Assembly: GCF_004792295.1 (NCBI RefSeq)
Contig: NZ_SRRY01000001.1
Span: forward strand, 3,293,501 to 3,357,500
DNA from: Pseudoalteromonas sp. MEBiC 03607
GTDB taxonomy: Bacteria > Pseudomonadota > Gammaproteobacteria > Enterobacterales > Alteromonadaceae
Direction of reading: 5' to 3'
DNA length: 64,000 nucleotides
Below the pieces are notes generated by a model. The model was not told the origin of the DNA. It saw only the letters and a list, made by a program, of their open reading frames with translations, and did not search any database. Shown here one piece after another: positions 7,005 to 60,971 of the stretch. Positions within the stretch are counted from its first letter, which is position 1, and each line of letters begins with the position of its first letter. Made by a program: the position numbers and the translations under genes.

Positions 7005-10000
7005 ATGAAACAACATGCATCCACACTCGCAATTAGCTATATAGCCAAAGCGACAAGCAATGCACTTCGTGCAAAGAAAACAGCCTTTACCGGCGTTGTT
7101 ATGGCCGCGGCTCTAGCCAGCGCACCAGCCTTTGCAAATCTAACCGGTGGTATTAAAGGTAAAGTATCATCACCAGCGACACAGCAGTCACTGGCAGGGA
7201 TCACAGTAACAGCAAAGAGTAACGTGATGCCAAAACCTCGTACCGTTGTTACGCGTGAAGATGGTAGTTATGACTTACCGCAGTTAAAGCCCGGTACTTA
7301 TGAACTGACTTTCACCGATAAAAACGGTGTAACGCAAACCATGACTGTCGACGTTTTACTTGAGCAAACATCAAGCTTAAACGTCACTATGGGTGGTGCT
7401 AACGAAAACGTTGAGGTTATCACGGTTACCGGCAGTAAGTTATTCCGCGAAGGTAAATCTGCACTCACTAACTCATTAGGTGAAGAAGCAATCAATAGCG
7501 TGCCAGTTGGTCAAGATTACCGTGACCTATTAAAACTTGTTCCGGGTGTTGAGCTATCTGAAAACGCAACCCTTGGTCCATCAGCAGGTGGTTCGGGTGT
7601 TGATAACTCTTACGGCTTTGACGGTGTTGATGTTTCACTCCCTATGTTTGGTAACTTAGCATCAGAGCCATCAACCCATGACGTTGCCTACGTTACTATG
7701 GATCGCGGTGGTGCAAAAGCCGTTGGCTTTAACCGTTCAGGTGGCTTCTCAATCAATACCGTATCAAAATCAGGTACTGACGAATTCCACGGTAATGTTG
7801 AATACAAAGTTCAACCTAAGAGCTTAGTGGCGACTCCAACAGGTCAAGAAAGCTATGAGCTTGATAAAAGCTGGTTAACAGCAAGTTTAGGCGGCCCGCT
7901 TATTGAAGACACTTTATACTTCTACACTTCTTATTATCGCCCTGAAGAAACACGTACTAATAAAGATACAGCCTATGGTGAAGTAAAAGACTATAAAAAT
8001 GTCCGAGATGAATACTTTGGTAAGTTAACTTGGGCACCTACTGACGATATTTTAATTAATATTTCACAGCGTACCTCAGAAAAAACCATCGAAGGTCGCT
8101 CTGTTGGCGCTTACGAAACTGACAGTGTTTCTGCAGGTGATAAAGCCGATCAAGATATCTTTACCTTAGATGGTTCGTGGCTTTTAGGTGATGCAACAAC
8201 TCTTTCATTCCAATACAGTAAATTAGAGATAGAGTCTGGTACCACACCTGATACAAAACTATCTGTAGTACCATCGTTAACGGGTCAACTTGACTTAAGT
8301 AATCTAACTGAAATGGGTTACTTCAGTGTACCAAGCTTATTAGATGCTGATGATAACTACACAGCAGAGCAAATTGCTGCATACAATGCAGGCGCTGCAC
8401 CACTCATTGCACAATACGGTTATACCGAAGATGGGCAAATGCGAGGTGGCGGCGGTGTTGGTGCGTATTACCAATACGATAATATCGACTTTTACCGTGA
8501 TAGCTTTGAGTTAAATCTAGAACATGAATTTAGCTGGGGCGATAGTTACCATACATTACATTTAGGTGGTGAATGGAAAGAAAGTAAAGAAGTTCTGTCT
8601 CGCCTTTCAAATGGTTGGGGTAGAATTTCTTATGTTGGCGGCCTAGATGAAAGCTTAGAAGAAGGCAGCTCTGCGCCGGTTATTTACCGTGCTCGCGTGC
8701 AACAAATGAGCTTAGTAGCAGGTGGAGATGCGGTTTCTGCTATTAACTCAGAAATGGAAACGCTGAACTTCGAAATCAACGACACCATTGAAGTAGGTGA
8801 TTGGACTTACAATGTGGGTGTGCTTGTGAGCCGCGATACTTGGTATGGTCAAGGTCTTAAATCAGCATCTGGTACTCTCTCTGGTTATGAGTTAGCACCA
8901 GGCGAAAAATACGAAATGTATCAAACAGATTGGACAGATATGATCCAGCCTCGTTTAGGTGTGAATTGGAATTATGCAGATCAAGACTCTGTATTTGCTA
9001 ACTTCTCAATGTATAACCCTGAAGCAAGCTCATTAGCGCGTGCAGCCTCTTGGGACCGTAATACCCGTGCCGAAATCGAAGTTGAATTTGATGAAGCGGG
9101 TAAAGTAATTTACGCAGAGCCGCGTCAAGGTTCATCTGGTAAAGTATTTGCTGATGATTTAACGCCTCGTCAAATCAAAGAGTTTACTCTTGGTACCACT
9201 AAATATGTGGGTTCTGATTTAGTATTACGTGCTCATGTTCGTCACCGTAAAGCATCGCATTTCTGGGAAGATATGCCAAATAACGCGCGCTTAACTGACT
9301 ACTCTGGCGTTGATGCTGAAGGTGTGCCACAACATATCGCTGATAAAGGCTTATACGTAGATAACCTTGACGCGATCCGTGATGAGATCGGCGGTTCATC
9401 ATATGTTATTGCCGAAGTAGATGGTGGCGAAACGAAATATTGGGAAGCGAGCATCGAAGCTGAATACTTAGGTGAAAACAGCTATATCAATGCTTCTTAT
9501 GTTTGGAGTCACTACTACGGTAACTTCGACCAAGATAACACCACAGCAACAACAGATGCGAATACCTTCATTGGTTCTTCGAACTATGGTGATGGCCGTG
9601 GCCGCTACCCTTGGGATTACAAATACGGCACATTATCAGGTGATAAACCGCATAAAGTAAAAGTTTATGGTTACTATACTGTGCCATGGGATGCGAACAT
9701 CGGTGCATACTTTGTATTCCAGTCGGGTAAACCTTGGGAAGCATGGGATGGTTCAATCTATGGCTACTCAAGTGGTACAGCACGTTATGGAGAACCTGCA
9801 GGTAGCCGTCGTAGCCCTAGCCATTGGCAGCTTGATTTAAACTACACCCAAGACTTTAAGTTCTCAGGTGACATGGAACTACAATTCCGTGCTGATATCT
9901 TCAACGTATTTGACCGTCAAACAGGTTATAACAATAACCCATATGTATCGTCAGAAACCTTTGGTGAGTATCGTAATTACTACAGCCCACGTCGTGTGCA

Positions 10001-20490: not shown

Positions 20491-20567
20491 TGGCGGACGC
20501 GGGAGGATTCGAACCTCCGACCGCCTGGTTCGTAGCCAGGTACTCTATCCAGCTGAGCTACGCGTCC
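20491..20567 (-). tRNA. tRNA-Arg(ACG), copy 1
   Basis: 77 nt with encoded CCA. The acceptor stem GGACGCG pairs with CGCGTCC; the anticodon loop is CTACGAA (ACG) in a CCTGG/CCAGG stem; the T loop is TTCGAAT. It is close to E. coli argV-type tRNA-Arg. ACG is read as ICG after A34 deamination by TadA. Confidence 0.97.
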
Positions 20568-20617
20568 GCATTATGTTTTTGCATGTTTAAGTCGTGCATT
20601 GACTGTGTCTTAAAGAC

Positions 20618-20640
20618 AAAAAAACCGACAGCTTGTCGGC
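20618..20640 (-). terminator. tRNA-array terminator 3
   Basis: CCGACA-GCT-TGTCGG with an A run on the plus strand; it lies after tRNA-Arg copy 2 in the leftward direction. It is a variant of the two other array terminators. Confidence 0.75.
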
Positions 20641-20663
20641 TTATGTCACTTCCTAGAAGGAAG

Positions 20664-20740
20664 TGGCGGACGCGGGAGGATTCGAACCTCCGACCGCCTG
20701 GTTCGTAGCCAGGTACTCTATCCAGCTGAGCTACGCGTCC
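20664..20740 (-). tRNA. tRNA-Arg(ACG), copy 2
   Basis: Identical in sequence to the copy at 20491, 77 nt with CCA. Confidence 0.97.
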
Positions 20741-20781
20741 GCAAAGTTGCATTTTATAATCTTGCAATGATTTTTCAAATA

Positions 20782-20823
20782 TGGCGGTTGCGGTACGTCT
20801 CTTGAAAGAGAGAACCTCCGACC
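20782..20823 (-). pseudogene. Decayed tRNA-Arg remnant C
   Basis: A short stretch (TGGCGGTTGCGGTACGT, then GAACCTCCGACC) matches the acceptor and T-arm part of tRNA-Arg with changes; the rest is lost. It lies between intact copies 2 and 3. Confidence 0.55.
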
Positions 20824-20860
20824 AAATTTGTATCTTTATACTCGATGTGAGTTTCAAATA

Positions 20861-20937
20861 TGGCGGACGCGGGAGGATTCGAACCTCCGACCGCCTGGTT
20901 CGTAGCCAGGTACTCTATCCAGCTGAGCTACGCGTCC
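20861..20937 (-). tRNA. tRNA-Arg(ACG), copy 3
   Basis: Identical in sequence to the other copies, 77 nt with CCA. Confidence 0.97.
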
Positions 20938-21018
20938 ACACGCACATTTGAACATTGCTAATTTATTCTCTTAGCAAGAGACTCAAGTTTATACTCGATG
21001 CAGAGTTAAAGTAAAAAG

Positions 21019-21095
21019 TGGCGGACGCGGGAGGATTCGAACCTCCGACCGCCTGGTTCGTAGCCAGGTACTCTATCCAGCTGAGCTACGCGTCC
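21019..21095 (-). tRNA. tRNA-Arg(ACG), copy 4
   Basis: Identical to the other copies; 38 bases downstream of tRNA-Ser in the same transcript direction. Confidence 0.97.
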
Positions 21096-21133
21096 ACACA
21101 TATTACTTTCAAGACATGCCATTTTAGGAAAAA

Positions 21134-21226
21134 TGGTGGAGAAGGAGGGATTCGAACCCTCGATAGAGCTACAAACCCTATACTCCCTTAGCAGGGGAGC
21201 GCCTTCGGCCACTCGGCCACCTCTCC
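21134..21226 (-). tRNA. tRNA-Ser(GCT)
   Basis: 93 nt with CCA. Anticodon loop CTGCTAA (GCT), a long variable arm typical of serine tRNAs, T loop TTCGAAT. It is first in the array, as in the E. coli serV-argVYZQ operon. Confidence 0.96.
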
Positions 21227-54119: not shown

Positions 54120-55064
54120 TTATAACCCTCCTTGTGCACGCAGATAGCGAACAAGGAACTCAGGGTCCTGTAATATTTTTTCGTTAAGCTCTTGGGCTGA
54201 CATCGCGAGTGAAACGCCGGGCTGAACAGGTCTGGTGGCATAGTAAGTTTGATCGTCAATCCAACCGGCTTGATGGGCTGCAAGAATGATTCGATTATTG
54301 AGCTCATCAAGGCTCATTGCGCCCTGGCCAATCGGAGTGATGACATTAGGCGGATCAACTAAGAACACGGCAGGGACAGTCGTAACGGACAAGGATTGAG
54401 CTTGTCCTGAATCGACTTTGTAATTTGGAAATTCTCCACTTGGTAAAGGTAAGCCATCGACAGCAATAGCAAACACCTCGAAACCGTAGTTCAAAGCCAT
54501 GGATTCGATGATAGGCGCTTGAGCATGGCAATAAGGGCAATCCGAACGATAGAAGAAGAACAAGCCAGCCCGTTTTGCTACTTCACCTAAAGCTACATCA
54601 CGTTGAGCGCCAGCTTCTCGATCCATCCGATTGGCAGCATAGGTCGCCAAGGGTCTGCGACTGATTTCATCCAAAACAGGATCGCCCATGACCACCTGCT
54701 GACTAACATCAGCAAACTGTGAGCCCTTATCCATCATGACTCGCTGGAGATACAGATAGGCTCTGACATTCTCATTCGTCGGCTCATCAATTGCCTTGTC
54801 CATGAACGACTGCATGTGCTCTCGGAACCAGGCAGCACTGAAGGGTCTTAGCTCGTCCTTTGTGGGCTCCATGACTCCAGATTCCGGCTTTATTTGCTCT
54901 TCAGACTCCGCTGGCTCAGAAATAACCTGATACCAAAACCAGCCTTCCTGACCACGCAGATAGAATTGCCCATCACTAGCATAGGCGGGCAAGATGAATA
55001 GAAAGAAAATAATGATTGGGATGGTCACCCATAGGATGAACCAAGGTAACAAAGGCGTTCTCAT
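54120..55064 (-). CDS. traF: TraF, thioredoxin-fold pilus assembly protein
   Basis: 314 residues from ATG 55064 (GGAG upstream); an in-frame ATG at 55085 adds seven residues. One N-terminal hydrophobic segment (LPWFILWVTIPIIIFFLFILPAYA) then a thioredoxin-like domain with a CPYC redox site (FFFYRSDCPYCHAQAPIIES) and TTVPAVFLVDP for the cis-Pro loop. TraF assists disulfide formation or pilus assembly in F-type systems. traH begins two bases after it. It marks the edge of the cargo hotspot. Confidence 0.95.
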   Translation of the reverse strand: MRTPLLPWFILWVTIPIIIFFLFILPAYASDGQFYLRGQEGWFWYQVISEPAESEEQIKPESGVMEPTKDELRPFSAAWFREHMQSFMDKAIDEPTNENVRAYLYLQRVMMDKGSQFADVSQQVVMGDPVLDEISRRPLATYAANRMDREAGAQRDVALGEVAKRAGLFFFYRSDCPYCHAQAPIIESMALNYGFEVFAIAVDGLPLPSGEFPNYKVDSGQAQSLSVTTVPAVFLVDPPNVITPIGQGAMSLDELNNRIILAAHQAGWIDDQTYYATRPVQPGVSLAMSAQELNEKILQDPEFLVRYLRAQGGL

Positions 55065-55188
55065 TGTCAGCTCCAGAAATTTCACAGAGCTAACATGCTA
55101 AAGATCCCCGTAAGAGCGATTGGCCAGATAGATGAAGGAATCGTGTATGTTGCTGACTATATGTTGTGACCAGTAACAGTAACAACAG

Positions 55189-55785
55189 CTATGCTTTATC
55201 TAGGGCTTTTTCTGCGATTAAATTATCAACTTTATTCTTCGCACTGCCTAGGCAGGCTTCTAGCGTTGTAGAGTTATCAACGATTGTATAATGAGACGAC
55301 AAGCGCTCGAATTGACTTTTGAAGCGTATCCTAAAATCCGTGTCATCGAGAGTTTTATCCAATATTGACTTTCCTCGCTCTGTAATACGTTGCTGGCGCA
55401 CTCCTTCATTAATGTCTATAAAGAGTGTTAGATCCGGTTTGACTATGCTGGTAAAACCCAGTTCGTAGTCAAGGTCAACATCCAGACCCATAGTACGATG
55501 TGAAACTATAGTGTCGATAAGATAGCGCACACAGTAGACGTTGTGGGTTTTGAGTTTTTTCTTGATGTCATTCGATGCTTTCACTACTGATGTTAGATAA
55601 TACAGATAGTGTGCATCAGGGTAGCTTTCTCTTAGCTCTTGAGTGAATTGCTCACGGTGCTCAGAGAACACACCTTCTGGTGTTTGGAGGTAATAGCCTT
55701 CTTGATCCATCTCTGCGAGTGTTTTGCCAATGCTCGTTGTGCCAGAGCCATCCAGTCCAGTGATCACAATAAATTTACCAGCCAC
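55189..55785 (-). CDS. Thymidylate-kinase-like P-loop nucleotide kinase (cargo)
   Basis: 198 residues, starting at GTG 55785 with a strong GGAGG five bases upstream. The P-loop GLDGSGTTS (residues 10-18) and a late LID-like RQQRITERGK fit the thymidylate kinase (dTMP/dUMP) family. The usual DRY/DRH after the base-binding strand is replaced by CVRYLIDTIVSHR, so substrate may differ from dTMP. It is third in the operon after the radical SAM and Gre-like genes, nine bases after the latter. Chromosomal tmk is not in this window, so it could act on a special nucleotide; that is inference. Spliced distance to traF is 124 bases. Confidence 0.82.
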   Translation of the reverse strand: MAGKFIVITGLDGSGTTSIGKTLAEMDQEGYYLQTPEGVFSEHREQFTQELRESYPDAHYLYYLTSVVKASNDIKKKLKTHNVYCVRYLIDTIVSHRTMGLDVDLDYELGFTSIVKPDLTLFIDINEGVRQQRITERGKSILDKTLDDTDFRIRFKSQFERLSSHYTIVDNSTTLEACLGSAKNKVDNLIAEKALDKA

Positions 55786-55794
55786 AGGTCCTCC

Positions 55795-56301
55795 TTATTT
55801 ATTTAATAATGGCGAAACAATGATTTCATCTATCTCATACAGGACATTGCCATGCGATGAGGGTAGACTCACTTCCTCTCCTACCTCATGTTCGAGTAGG
55901 ATCTGAGCTATGGGTGTGAGATAGCTAACAATATTTTCTTTTGGGTTGCTGTCGCCGTAACCAAGAATTGTCAGCATTCTAGTGTTATCATCTTCATCAA
56001 TGAGAGTCACCTGATGTCCCACTGTGACATAGCTGCAAAGGTTATTCCGAATATGGGGCATGTCTTCGATGACCTCTTTGTGTTCAAGTAGCTGAGCCAG
56101 CTCTTGAATCTTGCTTGGCAGTTCATATTCTGCTTTTGTTCTTAGTGCCATGAACTCCGGGTTTTCTCGTAAGTCGTTGTCAAGCTCCACTGTTTTCCCG
56201 ATCTTGACATTACACACCTTTATCTCCTTTTGAAGAGACGCAATTTCATTGTTAGCGCGTGCTAATCCTTCTCTGGTGAAATAGGTTTTTTGTTTATTCA
56301 T
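55795..56301 (-). CDS. GreA/GreB-like transcript-cleavage factor (cargo)
   Basis: 168 residues from ATG 56301, which overlaps the radical SAM stop by eight bases (ATGAATAA). N-terminal coiled coil (residues 10-75) with the tip sequence DNDLRENPEF: Asp43 and Glu46 correspond to GreA Asp41 and Glu44, which hold the metal for RNA cleavage. The C-terminal FKBP-like domain has VTVGHQVTLIDEDDNTRMLTILGYGDSNP and SYLTPIAQILLEHEVGEEVSLPSSHGNVLYEIDEI. Length is near 158-residue GreA. It should enter the RNA polymerase secondary channel. A chromosome-encoded GreA is not seen here, so this may be an accessory copy with a special target. Confidence 0.88.
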   Translation of the reverse strand: MNKQKTYFTREGLARANNEIASLQKEIKVCNVKIGKTVELDNDLRENPEFMALRTKAEYELPSKIQELAQLLEHKEVIEDMPHIRNNLCSYVTVGHQVTLIDEDDNTRMLTILGYGDSNPKENIVSYLTPIAQILLEHEVGEEVSLPSSHGNVLYEIDEIIVSPLLNK

Positions 56302-58054
56302 AAGTAACTCTCGTTGGAATTTGACCAACTATAATAGGCTCATCTAACTTCTTCATGCTTTTGACCACATTGCCCGGCAAGAAAAATTTGTAGTGTTGCT
56401 TGGACTGCCCATCTTCCGAAGACGTTGAGGTCAGATCTAGTTCCTCAATAATAAACTCGTCTTCTTTGGTGTAAGTGCGGCCCAACTTATTTGATATACG
56501 TTGTCTTCCACCCGGCGATAGACGGAACACTGTACCTTCATTGGCAAGGTCGCCTTTTTTACCAAACGCTCGCTCGTGATTCGGTGTCATTGGTAAATCT
56601 TGCCTTGAAGCTAGGAATTTGTACTCATTATAAGCGCGCCCCAGATTACAGATTTGCCCTGTATCCATAGTTAATTCCTTGTCCAAAAAGGAGCTAGCTG
56701 GCAATCTCGCCATCTTTAAGGTGCGAACATAACTCTCTATTAATGGAATAAGATCTTTCTCTATGTATTTCGATGATGCCTGAAATGCACAAGCTAATGT
56801 TCGAGCTTTGTTTTTGATGCTCTGGATAAGTGCGTCGATATCTTGCCAACTGGCATTATTCGTAGTCGCTTTCGTATCAATAATGGCATTGAGCAAGTAC
56901 CGTTCACCATCAATGTGGCCACTGTTTGGGCGTGCTATTGATTTTGGGTAGAAAAATTTTGCATAGCATTTCCTTGCTTGATTGCGCTCAACATTTACGC
57001 CAAAGTAGATGCCATCTTCGTTTTGCAGTTTATGTATTAAACATGGTGTGCCCGCTAATTTGCCGCGAAGGTATAGATCCGCTGATTTTCTCCAGTTTCC
57101 TTTCAGTTCTAGCTGGATCACCTTATGCCCCGGTGTGTCCATTTTCAGTGCGTGATCATGACTATCACTAATGCTTGCTGTCGTTAAGGTGTCAAGAGAT
57201 GTGTCTGATACATATAAATAATTTTTATAGGTAAGTATATGTATATCGAAGTATTTGGTTAGCTCCACCTCACCCACATCAATCATTGGTCGAAAACGTA
57301 ATTCTGCACTGAATAGTGCACCAGTATTTTTAAAGGTGTCAAGAAAGTGAGCCAAGTCTTTCTCAAATTCATCTCGATGGGTCGCCCCAGCTCTCATTCC
57401 AGCTTCTGTCCAACCATAGGTATAAGGAGATATTGAGAGTCTTACACCTGCTAAGCAGTAGCGTAGCGAGCTGCTTAGGTTTGTAAATGCTTGTCTGATT
57501 GGCTGATTATGTCGGCTGTAACCAACTGTAGCTATGCGGGTTTTCACCCCCAAGTTTTCGTAAACTAATCTAGCAAATGTATCAATATGTGGGTAAATCG
57601 CAGGGTCATTATCGAGATAGCAATAAATTACTCCGCGACGATCTTCTCGCCCATAGGCGATGAGTGGTGAATCGTGAATAGTTCTAGAATCGATGAAATG
57701 ACCAGTATCAAAATCAATAACATCCGTTATCTGATTGGGAGAGTAGTTTTGTTCTAAACTTACTGCTTTGATCACAGCGATGATGTTGCGCAGATTCTCT
57801 AAACTAAACTCTATGATACGCGAGCTTGCACCTTGGCTACAAAAGTTACACTTGTTGAAGCATCCACTTTGTGGTTGGAAATGACGCAGACGAGCAAAGA
57901 CCTCCTGAGGAAAGGCGCGAAACTCTTTGAAGAGCGAATAACGAGCATTAATCGAGTTAGTAGGTATTGTCGTTTCATCTTCTAGTAAGCAGTAAAAAGG
58001 CAATAGATTGGGTTGAGATGAAACGAGCGCATTACTAGTACTGTTACTATTCAT
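56294..58054 (-). CDS. Radical SAM enzyme of unknown type (cargo)
   Basis: 586 residues, larger than the usual 300-450 for the core. Cys65, Cys69 and Cys72 form the CxxxCxxC cluster motif (GCFNKCNFCSQ). The barrel continues with ISPYTYGWTEAGMRAGATH and a C-terminal half (about 300-586) with LSPGGRQRISNKLGRTYTKEDEFIIEELDL that I cannot match to a named family. The first gene of the operon, read from a promoter beside the WYL gene. The GGAG ribosome site is strong. Candidate activities include nucleotide or peptide modification; viperin-type enzymes share the motif spacing but little else visible. Confidence 0.8.
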   Translation of the reverse strand: MNSNSTSNALVSSQPNLLPFYCLLEDETTIPTNSINARYSLFKEFRAFPQEVFARLRHFQPQSGCFNKCNFCSQGASSRIIEFSLENLRNIIAVIKAVSLEQNYSPNQITDVIDFDTGHFIDSRTIHDSPLIAYGREDRRGVIYCYLDNDPAIYPHIDTFARLVYENLGVKTRIATVGYSRHNQPIRQAFTNLSSSLRYCLAGVRLSISPYTYGWTEAGMRAGATHRDEFEKDLAHFLDTFKNTGALFSAELRFRPMIDVGEVELTKYFDIHILTYKNYLYVSDTSLDTLTTASISDSHDHALKMDTPGHKVIQLELKGNWRKSADLYLRGKLAGTPCLIHKLQNEDGIYFGVNVERNQARKCYAKFFYPKSIARPNSGHIDGERYLLNAIIDTKATTNNASWQDIDALIQSIKNKARTLACAFQASSKYIEKDLIPLIESYVRTLKMARLPASSFLDKELTMDTGQICNLGRAYNEYKFLASRQDLPMTPNHERAFGKKGDLANEGTVFRLSPGGRQRISNKLGRTYTKEDEFIIEELDLTSTSSEDGQSKQHYKFFLPGNVVKSMKKLDEPIIVGQIPTRVTYE

Positions 58055-58116
58055 TTTTAACTCCTAAAATGCTATTATATCTATTCACTAGACACACTTT
58101 AGCAAACTGAGTATAC
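58055..58116. promoter_or_regulatory. Divergent promoter of the cargo cassette
   Basis: Only 62 bases separate the two ATGs. On the minus strand TATAAT (58074-58079) lies about ten bases upstream of the ribosome site of the radical SAM gene; a TTGCTA sits 20 bases further. The plus-strand gene lacks a clear ribosome site. A compact divergent promoter suits a self-acting WYL regulator, as with BrxR and CapW, but no operator is resolved. Confidence 0.5.
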
Positions 58117-59982
58117 ATGTCAATGAAACTATATGAACATCTAAATCAGAAACGGAATGGACAAGCTATCCTTAAGCGTTTGCAATGGATGGAGGGTCAA
58201 CTAAGTTGGATTGGCGAGTTTAATCGAAAAGACTTGGTAACTCGGTTTGCTATTTCTACTCAACAAGCATCCGCTGATATTGCTCTTTACAAAGAGTTTG
58301 CTCCAAATAATATAAAGTTTGACAACCGTTCGAAGGTGTTTTTTCTTAGCGAGTCATTCACTCCTTTGTTTGAGCATGAACCGATAGAATGGCTTCAACA
58401 GGAGCAACACAAGGAAGTGGGAAATTTACTCGGTCTGGTCGATATCACGGGCATTCCGCAAAAGATGGAGCCTAAGATCTTTCGCACCCTGAATCGCTGT
58501 CGGAAATATGAAACCCCAGTGCAGGTAGAGATTGGAGCTTTTTCATCTTCAGAAAAGAGGGAAGACCTAATCTGTCCCCACTCGATAGTAGTAACACCTG
58601 TTCGTTGGCATGTGCGAGCTTGGAGTGGACATCGTCAGAAGTTTATTGATCTGCCTATCAGTCGTATCTTAAGCGCAGTACCAAATGACAGTAGGGACTG
58701 GGTATCAAAAGAAGCAGATCGTGAGTGGCTTACTGAAATTCCTATTATTTTAGGACCTTCAGAACATCTAGAGCCAAGCCAGCAACAGATGGTTTCTAAT
58801 GCTTATGGCATGAGTGATGGAGTTGTTGCGATCCCTACCAAGGTTTGCTTGGTCTACTATACACTGGCTACAATGAAACTATTAAATGCTGTTCGTGAGT
58901 ATAAAGGGGAAGCTATTGACCCTAAGCTAAATATTCGGGTTGTCAACTACAAAGAATTGCTACCACTAGTAAAATATTCCCCCTCTTTTGAATGGAGCAA
59001 TCGGTTGGAACTCAGTGAAGAAATTCAAGAGTTATCAGATCAAGTTGAACAATCACAGTGTCATATTACTGCTCTACTATCGTCGAACTATCCGTTGTGG
59101 CTCGGCTCTGGCTTTGCAAAAATTGCAGCTAGTTATGGCGCAGAGCTTTGCGTTACTAATGGCATTATGAGTACTTTCATGTCGGCAGTGGATTATAAGT
59201 CCAGCCCATTGAAAACCTCTTTCTTCCCTATTCTCTTGAGTTTTGCGGGCAAAGGAGAAGATGCTATCGATACTGCTGAAAATATAGCTAATGCTTCAAA
59301 TGAAGCGGGCATTATTACATGTAACTCTGAGTCCGAAGCAGTTAAAAAACTTTCTACTATCCGCTGCAGTTATCTATTTGGTAAATTCCCTAAACGAGAT
59401 AAACGTTTTGTTAATATCAAATCAATACTGACTCTAACTGCCTTGGCTGAAGAGTATGCCCGGAAGCAATTTGATTTGCCATTACCTGAACTTGACTTGC
59501 AAAGCTGTGCTCAACAGGCGGAAGTAATTGGTATGCGTGCGGCAGAGCAGTTTATTGAAAACTTTAGCTGGCGCACTAAACAGCTTATTGTCGTTGGTAA
59601 AGGCTATAATAATCCGCTAGAGCATGTTTGGAAGAGTATACTCGCAGAAGCAGGCATAATGACTCCGACTTGGGTTGATATTAAAGACTTTACTCACGGT
59701 GATCATCGGCATGTTAGTCTATATCAAAACCATGCTTTTTTATTACTTGAACAACCAGAGATTAGAGAATATTGCGACATTTTTGAGCGTCGGTTTGGTC
59801 AAATTTATCCTATAGAACGCGTCAGTTTAGCTGGTATGTTTAGGGAGCAGTTTTGGTTAAACTTGCTTACAGCGATATTTTTTACTCATCGCTTAACTTA
59901 TGAGCAAGGTTATAATGGCAATCGTCCTCCCAAGAATGAACAAGTGCACTCTTGGCGTGGGTGGGGAAGATTGAACAATTGA
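58117..59982 (+). CDS. Winged-helix/WYL regulator fused to tandem SIS-like domain
   Basis: 621 residues. Residues 1-85 form a winged helix (ILKRLQWMEGQLSWIGEFNRKDLVTRFAISTQQASADIALYKEF). Residues 150-290 form a WYL-like domain: VTPVRWHVRAWSGHRQKFIDLPISRIL, then a WCX-like part. Residues 300-600 resemble paired SIS domains of GlmS-type enzymes: LLSSNYPLWLGSG, LSFAGKGEDAIDTAENIANASNEAGIITCN and a second LIVVGKGYNNPLEHVWKSILAEAGIMTPTWVDIKDFTHGDHRHV ending with the xxFxHG turn. WYL proteins sense nucleic-acid or nucleotide ligands in many defence loci; a SIS part would sense or convert a phosphosugar. The stop codon lies in an octamer array. Confidence 0.75.
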   Translation: MSMKLYEHLNQKRNGQAILKRLQWMEGQLSWIGEFNRKDLVTRFAISTQQASADIALYKEFAPNNIKFDNRSKVFFLSESFTPLFEHEPIEWLQQEQHKEVGNLLGLVDITGIPQKMEPKIFRTLNRCRKYETPVQVEIGAFSSSEKREDLICPHSIVVTPVRWHVRAWSGHRQKFIDLPISRILSAVPNDSRDWVSKEADREWLTEIPIILGPSEHLEPSQQQMVSNAYGMSDGVVAIPTKVCLVYYTLATMKLLNAVREYKGEAIDPKLNIRVVNYKELLPLVKYSPSFEWSNRLELSEEIQELSDQVEQSQCHITALLSSNYPLWLGSGFAKIAASYGAELCVTNGIMSTFMSAVDYKSSPLKTSFFPILLSFAGKGEDAIDTAENIANASNEAGIITCNSESEAVKKLSTIRCSYLFGKFPKRDKRFVNIKSILTLTALAEEYARKQFDLPLPELDLQSCAQQAEVIGMRAAEQFIENFSWRTKQLIVVGKGYNNPLEHVWKSILAEAGIMTPTWVDIKDFTHGDHRHVSLYQNHAFLLLEQPEIREYCDIFERRFGQIYPIERVSLAGMFREQFWLNLLTAIFFTHRLTYEQGYNGNRPPKNEQVHSWRGWGRLNN

Positions 59983-60066
59983 ACAATTGAACAATTGAAC
60001 AATTGAACAATTGAACAATTGAACAATTGAACAATTGAACAATTGAACAATTGAACAATTGAACAA
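59971..60066. repeat. Twelve perfect TTGAACAA octamer repeats
   Basis: TTGAACAA repeated 12 times without change, starting in the last codons of the WYL-SIS gene. The stop TGA falls in the second unit, so changes in copy number would not change the protein beyond its last residues. The unit is not a self-complementary stem. Slippage is likely. Confidence 0.97.
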
Positions 60067-60263: not shown

Positions 60264-60971
60264 TCACTTTACTGCAAAAACCGTAACCAATGTCTTCATT
60301 GAGTCACCCGTAATCATAACAAAGTACATCTTGCTCTCCACGTGCTGCCAGAACTCAGCCTCTTGAGCATATTTTTTTGCTTTTTGGATAGCGATGCTTT
60401 TTGGTAATTGGGCTTTAGTTAGCGCAGAACATAGCAGCTTTGAGCACAAAGCCTTCCAAGGATGCTTAGGTGCACCGTCTGAAAGCCGTTCCACAAACCG
60501 TTCCAGTGCATGACGAGTAACCACGACAGGTCCAATACTTGGCACATTGATTACCTCATCGATTTCTCTCACTGTAGCATTATCTACGATGTATTCTTCG
60601 AAGGAATGTGAGAGCCAATCGTCTCTCTTTTCTACCGAGATCTGTGCTTCTTCGTAACGGGTGAGCAAAAACCTAGTCAGGCTGTAAAGTGAATGCTGAG
60701 TTGAGCGTTGTTTCTGTAACTTTTTGATGGCTCCTTTACTGACCCGGATTTGAAGCCCATTACCGCTTCGGTTACTCCCCATCACCTCTTTCACTGACAG
60801 TAGGTGATGAATAGCATAAAGCTCAGCTGCAATTGGCTTTTGCTGCTCAGGTAGCTTGTCGTATTGCTCACCTAAATTGACCTTTAGCTCACCACCTCTT
60901 CGAAGGCCGGTCTTCCAGTAAACCATAAACTCACCATCAATCTGCTTTGTTAACAGGGTTAATACCATCAT
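60264..60971 (-). CDS. Conserved ICE hypothetical protein with toxin-like C-terminus
   Basis: 235 residues in the position of the SXT hotspot-flanking gene (s073-like). Residues 145-235 (VVVTRHALERFVERLSDG...SKMYFVMITGDSMKTLVTVFAV) recall small RNase-fold domains with an RHALxRxxER helix and a TVF end, as in DUF4258 or BrnT-like proteins. The N-terminal half (VKEVMGSNRSGNGLQIRVSKGAIKKLQKQRS) has no assignment. The start has AGGAG upstream and a second ATG in tandem. Confidence 0.65.
   Translation of the reverse strand: MMVLTLLTKQIDGEFMVYWKTGLRRGGELKVNLGEQYDKLPEQQKPIAAELYAIHHLLSVKEVMGSNRSGNGLQIRVSKGAIKKLQKQRSTQHSLYSLTRFLLTRYEEAQISVEKRDDWLSHSFEEYIVDNATVREIDEVINVPSIGPVVVTRHALERFVERLSDGAPKHPWKALCSKLLCSALTKAQLPKSIAIQKAKKYAQEAEFWQHVESKMYFVMITGDSMKTLVTVFAVK

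Follow-up and report, generated by a model that had tools for sequence, protein, structure and literature searches.

The 64,000-nucleotide stretch of the Pseudoalteromonas sp. MEBiC 03607 genome analyzed here (contig NZ_SRRY01000001.1; called the window) carries a complete four-gene unit at positions 55189-59982, which is where an earlier note, made from the letters alone, had placed it. Three genes reading leftward encode a radical S-adenosylmethionine (SAM) protein, a Gre-like transcript cleavage factor, and a thymidylate-kinase-like protein; a fourth, divergent gene encodes a regulator (Table 1). The leftward genes lie close together: the ATG start of the Gre gene overlaps the radical SAM stop by five bases, and the kinase-like gene starts nine bases past the Gre gene. 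The regulator gene starts 62 bases from the radical SAM gene, in the opposite direction. Both flanking genes belong to the backbone of an integrative and conjugative element (ICE), with matches of 94.6-95.9% in E. coli ICEs. The cassette proteins have their closest relatives in Vibrio. In SXT/R391 elements, hotspot 3 is the insertion site between s073 and traF, according to PMC2791158. Judged by gene order, the cassette occupies this hotspot 3 (s073-traF) of an SXT/R391-type ICE, in line with the earlier description of four genes between traF and a conserved ICE gene.

Table 1. Features of the cassette and its flanks (positions in the window).
Feature	Position	Strand	Remarks
Radical SAM protein, 586 aa	56294..58054	-	C64-x3-C68-x2-C71; unnamed family
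Gre-like transcript cleavage factor, 167 aa	55795..56298	-	catalytic acids kept (DNDLRENPE)
Thymidylate-kinase-like protein, 198 aa, GTG start	55189..55785	-	GLDGSGT (Thr for P-loop Lys), VRY (Val for DR Asp)
CapW/BrxR-like regulator (about residues 1-290) with SIS phosphosugar-isomerase-type domain (292-616)	58117..59982	+	fusion protein
Candidate operator TATCTA-N5-TAGACA	58078..58094	none	one mismatch short of a palindrome; common to 9854-9870 of locus L003
Sigma-70-like promoter, radical SAM operon	58096..58123	-	10/12 matches; adjoins candidate operator; weak
Flank: traF, thioredoxin-family conjugation gene, ICE backbone	54120..55085	-	named via gene order in an excerpt of PMC2791158
Flank: ICE backbone gene in s073 position	60264..60971	-	named via gene order in an excerpt of PMC2791158

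The cassette is a recurring unit and not a chance neighborhood. When genome contigs were searched with a 39-row alignment of the radical SAM protein, 55 loci emerged, 54 of which were mapped (L047 was missed by open reading frame picking); an earlier scan with the single protein had returned no loci. A kinase-like gene accompanied the radical SAM gene in 20 of these 54 other loci (the distant kinase match of L029 being left out), a Gre-like gene in 17, and both in 13, in every case on the same strand and in the same cluster. The four loci with a Gre gene but without a kinase-like gene (L012, L013, L015, and L019) start less than 4 kb from a contig end. Thus, the genes do recur together, and the objection that they might never co-occur elsewhere, raised with the first description, has fallen away. 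Cassette loci span Gammaproteobacteria, Firmicutes, and one candidate-phylum bin; three of the genes co-occur widely, and all four only in Gammaproteobacteria. In a midpoint-rooted tree of 52 proteins, the type with both the Gre and the kinase-like gene appeared in three deep branches, that is, the window together with Atlantibacter, the Firmicutes, and the candidate-phylum bin, the last being a single 8.6-kb metagenome bin contig (L002) that is possibly misbinned.

The partners also diverged together. Mantel tests (without L029, L052, and L053) gave r = 0.92 for the radical SAM and kinase-like proteins (n = 21), 0.94 for radical SAM and Gre (n = 18), 0.94 for kinase-like and Gre (n = 14), and 0.71 for radical SAM and NADAR-domain proteins (n = 33; p = 0.0001 each), values that are inflated by near-identical loci (L016/L017/L023 and L009/L012/L013/L054) and that fit co-transfer of an operon as well as shared ancestry. 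Taking the best 120 of 142 radical SAM and the best 120 of 348 kinase-like matches, 29 of the 120 radical SAM rows were tied to kinase-like rows by contigs of equal size (null mean 0.42, maximum 3). Radical SAM relatives in Pseudomonas, Stenotrophomonas, Vibrio, and Providencia are known by such equal-sized contigs alone, their neighborhoods lying outside the mapped loci. The radical SAM gene is patchy and rare: in overlapping sets of 60 relatives, 369 genomes from the class, 246 from the family, and 299 from the phylum, only its own genome carried it. Its protein had no match in E. coli DNA and one weak match (19%) in a plasmid search. A phage or virus origin was rejected, as the protein had no match in phages, and neither the radical SAM nor the regulator alignment had one in viral contigs.

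Assignment of the largest leftward gene product to the radical SAM superfamily follows from the cluster motif, whose C64, C68, and C71 are invariant in 74 aligned sequences, and from the core fold, which is present in the modeled structure; the match to Pfam PF04055 (14.9 bits) remained below the cut-off of 29.5. The earlier note had compared the radical SAM enzyme and its kinase with viperin and the kinase linked to it. The superfamily held, viperin itself did not: a search of NCBIfam at E ≤ 1, viperin model NF038283 included, gave no match to the cassette protein, the viperin profile aligned with it at an hhalign probability of only 5.2, and membership was rejected. Within the whole genome of the strain, NF038283 found nothing at E ≤ 0.001. 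Viperin and the prokaryotic viperins, defined by turning CTP, UTP, or GTP into the ddh form, are half as long as the cassette protein, which has conserved motifs of its own (YLDND and DTGxICNLG) and which, unlike viperin, is accompanied by a Gre factor and by a kinase-like protein without the usual catalytic residues. The protein belongs to an unannotated family whose genes recur alongside those for NADAR, Gre, and the kinase-like family.

The kinase half of the viperin comparison fared no better. Phosphoryl transfer by such enzymes needs the P-loop lysine and the aspartate of the DR motif. When aligned to the thymidylate kinase of the host, which has both, the window protein showed threonine and valine, respectively, at these positions. 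Among the best 120 of 348 relatives, the lysine was replaced by threonine in all 120, and the aspartate by valine (VRY) in 115 and by asparagine (NRY) in one, the pattern being unmatched in the remaining four. As both residues are replaced, kinase activity is not to be assumed, and the label "nucleotide kinase" is best taken to mean a nucleotide-binding fold. The protein shares its fold family and a LID-like RG..LD region with thymidylate kinase (PF02223) and with PDC-M51B and VakA, whose PADLOC models it matched at 8.8e-28 and 5.4e-17, and departs from all three at the two catalytic positions. Viperin-linked kinases were discarded as relatives, since none of four true viperin loci held a member of the cassette family within about 1.5 kb on each side, which is a weak comparison.

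The Gre-like factor has kept its catalytic residues: both acids (D/E), already seen in the window protein by the earlier note, are present in 18 of 18 cassette Gre-like proteins. It has both Gre domains in common with GreA and GreB, the N-terminal coiled coil with the two acids and the C-terminal domain (PF01272 over its cut-off; PF03449 at 22.6 bits, just below 24.5). Compared with 15 cassette Gre proteins (from Gammaproteobacteria, Firmicutes, and the candidate-phylum bin), the window protein scored 65-172 bits; with the GreA- and GreB-like proteins of its own host it reached only 35.5 and 12.4 bits, and it therefore belongs with the cassette. It groups apart from the GreA/GreB pair of the host and nearer to the cassette Gre proteins of other phyla; the tree includes only two host proteins, so it cannot test whether the cassette Gre proteins form a single clade. 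A dedicated Gre clade whose gene is translationally coupled to the radical SAM gene would also suit an RNA-polymerase-directed toxin with its antidote, in which a Gre-like effector enters the secondary channel and is modified or unleashed by the radical SAM enzyme. We regard this as very unlikely, as the acids kept throughout indicate that cleavage is under selection, and as many loci have the radical SAM gene without Gre.

The earlier note had called the regulator a WYL-type protein and pointed out that such proteins often control defense genes; the link to defense could be drawn more closely. Residues 20-255 match CapW (7tb6) at 1.6e-27, and at 1.1e-19 with Foldseek, in the order winged helix-turn-helix, WYL, WCX. 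The W-H motif, according to PMC9122588 a mark of immune-type WYL proteins, is found as W164-H165 in 12 of 12 aligned regulator rows. By these matches the regulator is a relative of CapW/BrxR, hence of a defense-linked group, and not merely any WYL protein. It has its N-terminal 290 residues, the W-H motif, and, as a candidate, a promoter inverted repeat with a 5-bp spacer in common with the CapW/BrxR proteins of CBASS and BREX, but it carries a C-terminal SIS domain, and genes of CBASS or BREX are absent from the unit. The repeats to which BrxR binds have a 5-bp spacer (PMC9122601), and the candidate operator lies in the divergent promoters of both the window and the Atlantibacter copy (L003), its pattern having been read off the same two sites. 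The promoter search found two sigma-70-like sites against 1.2 expected in shuffled sequence, no better than chance allows. Six of the 12 regulator rows were tied to radical SAM rows through contigs of equal size.

PADLOC, NCBIfam, Pfam, and the literature yielded no named system composed of these parts, just as the earlier note had supposed: PADLOC matched only the kinase-like protein (PDC-M51B and VakA) and generic WYL models, and no description of the gene set was found in a literature search whose scope left out most subscription journals.

Near the radical SAM gene in the 54 other loci, NADAR was the most frequent neighbor (34 loci), followed by LysR (16), CYTH-like (15), NUDIX-like (14), and aminotransferase genes (3). 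The CYTH, NADAR, NUDIX, and LysR labels stem largely from custom profiles, and those for NUDIX may include false matches; for CYTH, Pfam gave one match above the cut-off, in L002, another below it, in L009, and none for the related L005 protein. A NADAR domain is annotated on 9 of the best 120 of 142 radical SAM relatives (precomputed annotation), and some clusters fuse NADAR to the radical SAM protein or to the Gre protein, the latter in L021 (by Pfam) and in L025 (by custom profile only). The natural-product literature on arsinothricin was rejected as a precedent for pairing NADAR with radical SAM, as "NADAR" is there an author's surname. NADAR enzymes undo the ADP-ribosylation of guanosine in RNA (PMC11833690), which could make the cassette a kit for the repair of nucleic acids or nucleotides: the radical SAM enzyme and NADAR would remove or rebuild damaged bases, for example ADP-ribosylated guanine, and Gre would make the damaged 3′ end accessible where RNA polymerase has stalled, so that the unit would guard against toxins or phage damage and make no poison. 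The frequency and the fusions of NADAR suit this proposal; Gre would be needed as much for repair as in a poisoning system, and umuC- and umuD-like genes adjoin the end of the Atlantibacter cassette (L003 12962-15725). We nevertheless consider repair unlikely.

A different reading is suggested by the LysR, aminotransferase, and NUDIX-like neighbors, by the flanking ABC-transporter genes that several Bacilli loci have in common, as expected of an inherited locus, and by the SIS domain of the regulator, which hints at the sensing of sugar phosphates. The unit might thus be a small-molecule pathway whose product is a signal, a cofactor, or an antibiotic and whose primary role is not defense; the Gre, NADAR, and triphosphatase-like genes would serve self-resistance or clean-up. 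Such a pathway sits poorly with the gammaproteobacterial version, which resides in an ICE hotspot under a CapW-type regulator and has no transporter in the unit, and no known natural-product family in Pfam or NCBIfam matched the cassette proteins. It appears rather unlikely, if less so than repair.

The reading that we favor is a role in protection against phages, and the account that we put forward is possible rather than probable: a recurring operon under a CapW-like regulator would act as an inducible anti-phage system that makes a transcription-blocking nucleotide and protects itself through Gre. The main support for this account is what the parts have in common: RNA, RNA polymerase, or nucleotides are the targets of both Gre and NADAR, and the cassette has a dedicated Gre factor. 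A ligand derived from phage or stress, perhaps together with a sugar phosphate, would make the CapW-SIS repressor let go of the repeat at 58078-58094. The radical SAM enzyme may then convert a nucleotide or a nucleotide-linked substrate, which the kinase-like protein would bind or hand over rather than act as an ordinary ATP-dependent kinase. Incorporation of the product would make RNA polymerase backtrack; the dedicated Gre-like factor would cut the transcript and restart the polymerase of the host, leaving a single-subunit phage polymerase unaided. In the many relatives that have NADAR, this enzyme could clear the modified nucleotide or base. Oxazinomycin, a nucleoside antibiotic from Streptomyces that acts on RNA polymerase, offers a precedent for the rescue step: GreA relieves the arrest caused by a single incorporated residue, though not at runs of them (PMC6821320). 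The likeness is one of mechanism only, that is, of an incorporated analogue causing backtracking that GreA can relieve; by this analogy, the cassette Gre may free RNA polymerase that a modified nucleotide has stalled.

Two points weigh against this account. The Bacilli and actinobacterial versions lack Gre, and the PADLOC scan of neighbors covered 66 of 182 eligible ones (19 loci, nearest first) with no matched island control. It is rather unlikely that the cassette represents a new class of immunity centered on transcription, with a radical SAM poison, a Gre antidote, a kinase-fold carrier without the P-loop lysine, and a CapW-SIS switch, in which rescue is open only to the multisubunit polymerase of the host, which thereby survives. 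The gene set is called new because no library or literature searched returned it; the proposed logic resembles that of viperin. If true, the account would place a second radical SAM route to antiviral nucleotides next to that of viperin and provide, to our knowledge, the first use of a Gre factor in immunity, and it would predict an undiscovered nucleotide. Even without a role in defense, the cassette defines a radical SAM family with its partners and offers concrete substrates and residues for study.

Other versions of the locus differ in their company. In Bacilli, a recurring unit of LysR, the radical SAM gene, and a NADAR-DHH fusion has neither a Gre nor a kinase-like gene (L007 3514-7320 and similar loci). 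In some actinobacterial loci, the radical SAM gene adjoins a 500-aa gene (L036 8497-9996 and L051 8313-9818), which resembles ATP-grasp by eye only and had no Pfam match. A PtuA-like ATPase (PADLOC 1.2e-24) and a LeoBC-like GTPase (4.4e-10) lie beside a Lachnospiraceae cassette (L048 5913-9243), where the gene that follows Gre weakly matches HEPN.

Hotspot 3 was compared in 3 of 35 E. coli records. It is empty in one ICE (L057, 92 bases), filled by McrBC-type restriction genes in a second strain (L058 3077-6151), which is a sign that this hotspot takes up defense genes, and filled by an uncharacterized 354-aa protein in a third (L059 3040-4104). In the window, a perfect 8-bp tandem repeat (ATTGAACA, 12.1 copies; 59970-60066) starts within the final codons of the regulator gene, whose stop codon is formed by the first ATTGAACA units; copy number should therefore leave the protein unchanged. 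The chromosomal part of the window holds an array of four tRNA-Arg(acg) genes and one tRNA-Ser(gct) gene (20491-21226).
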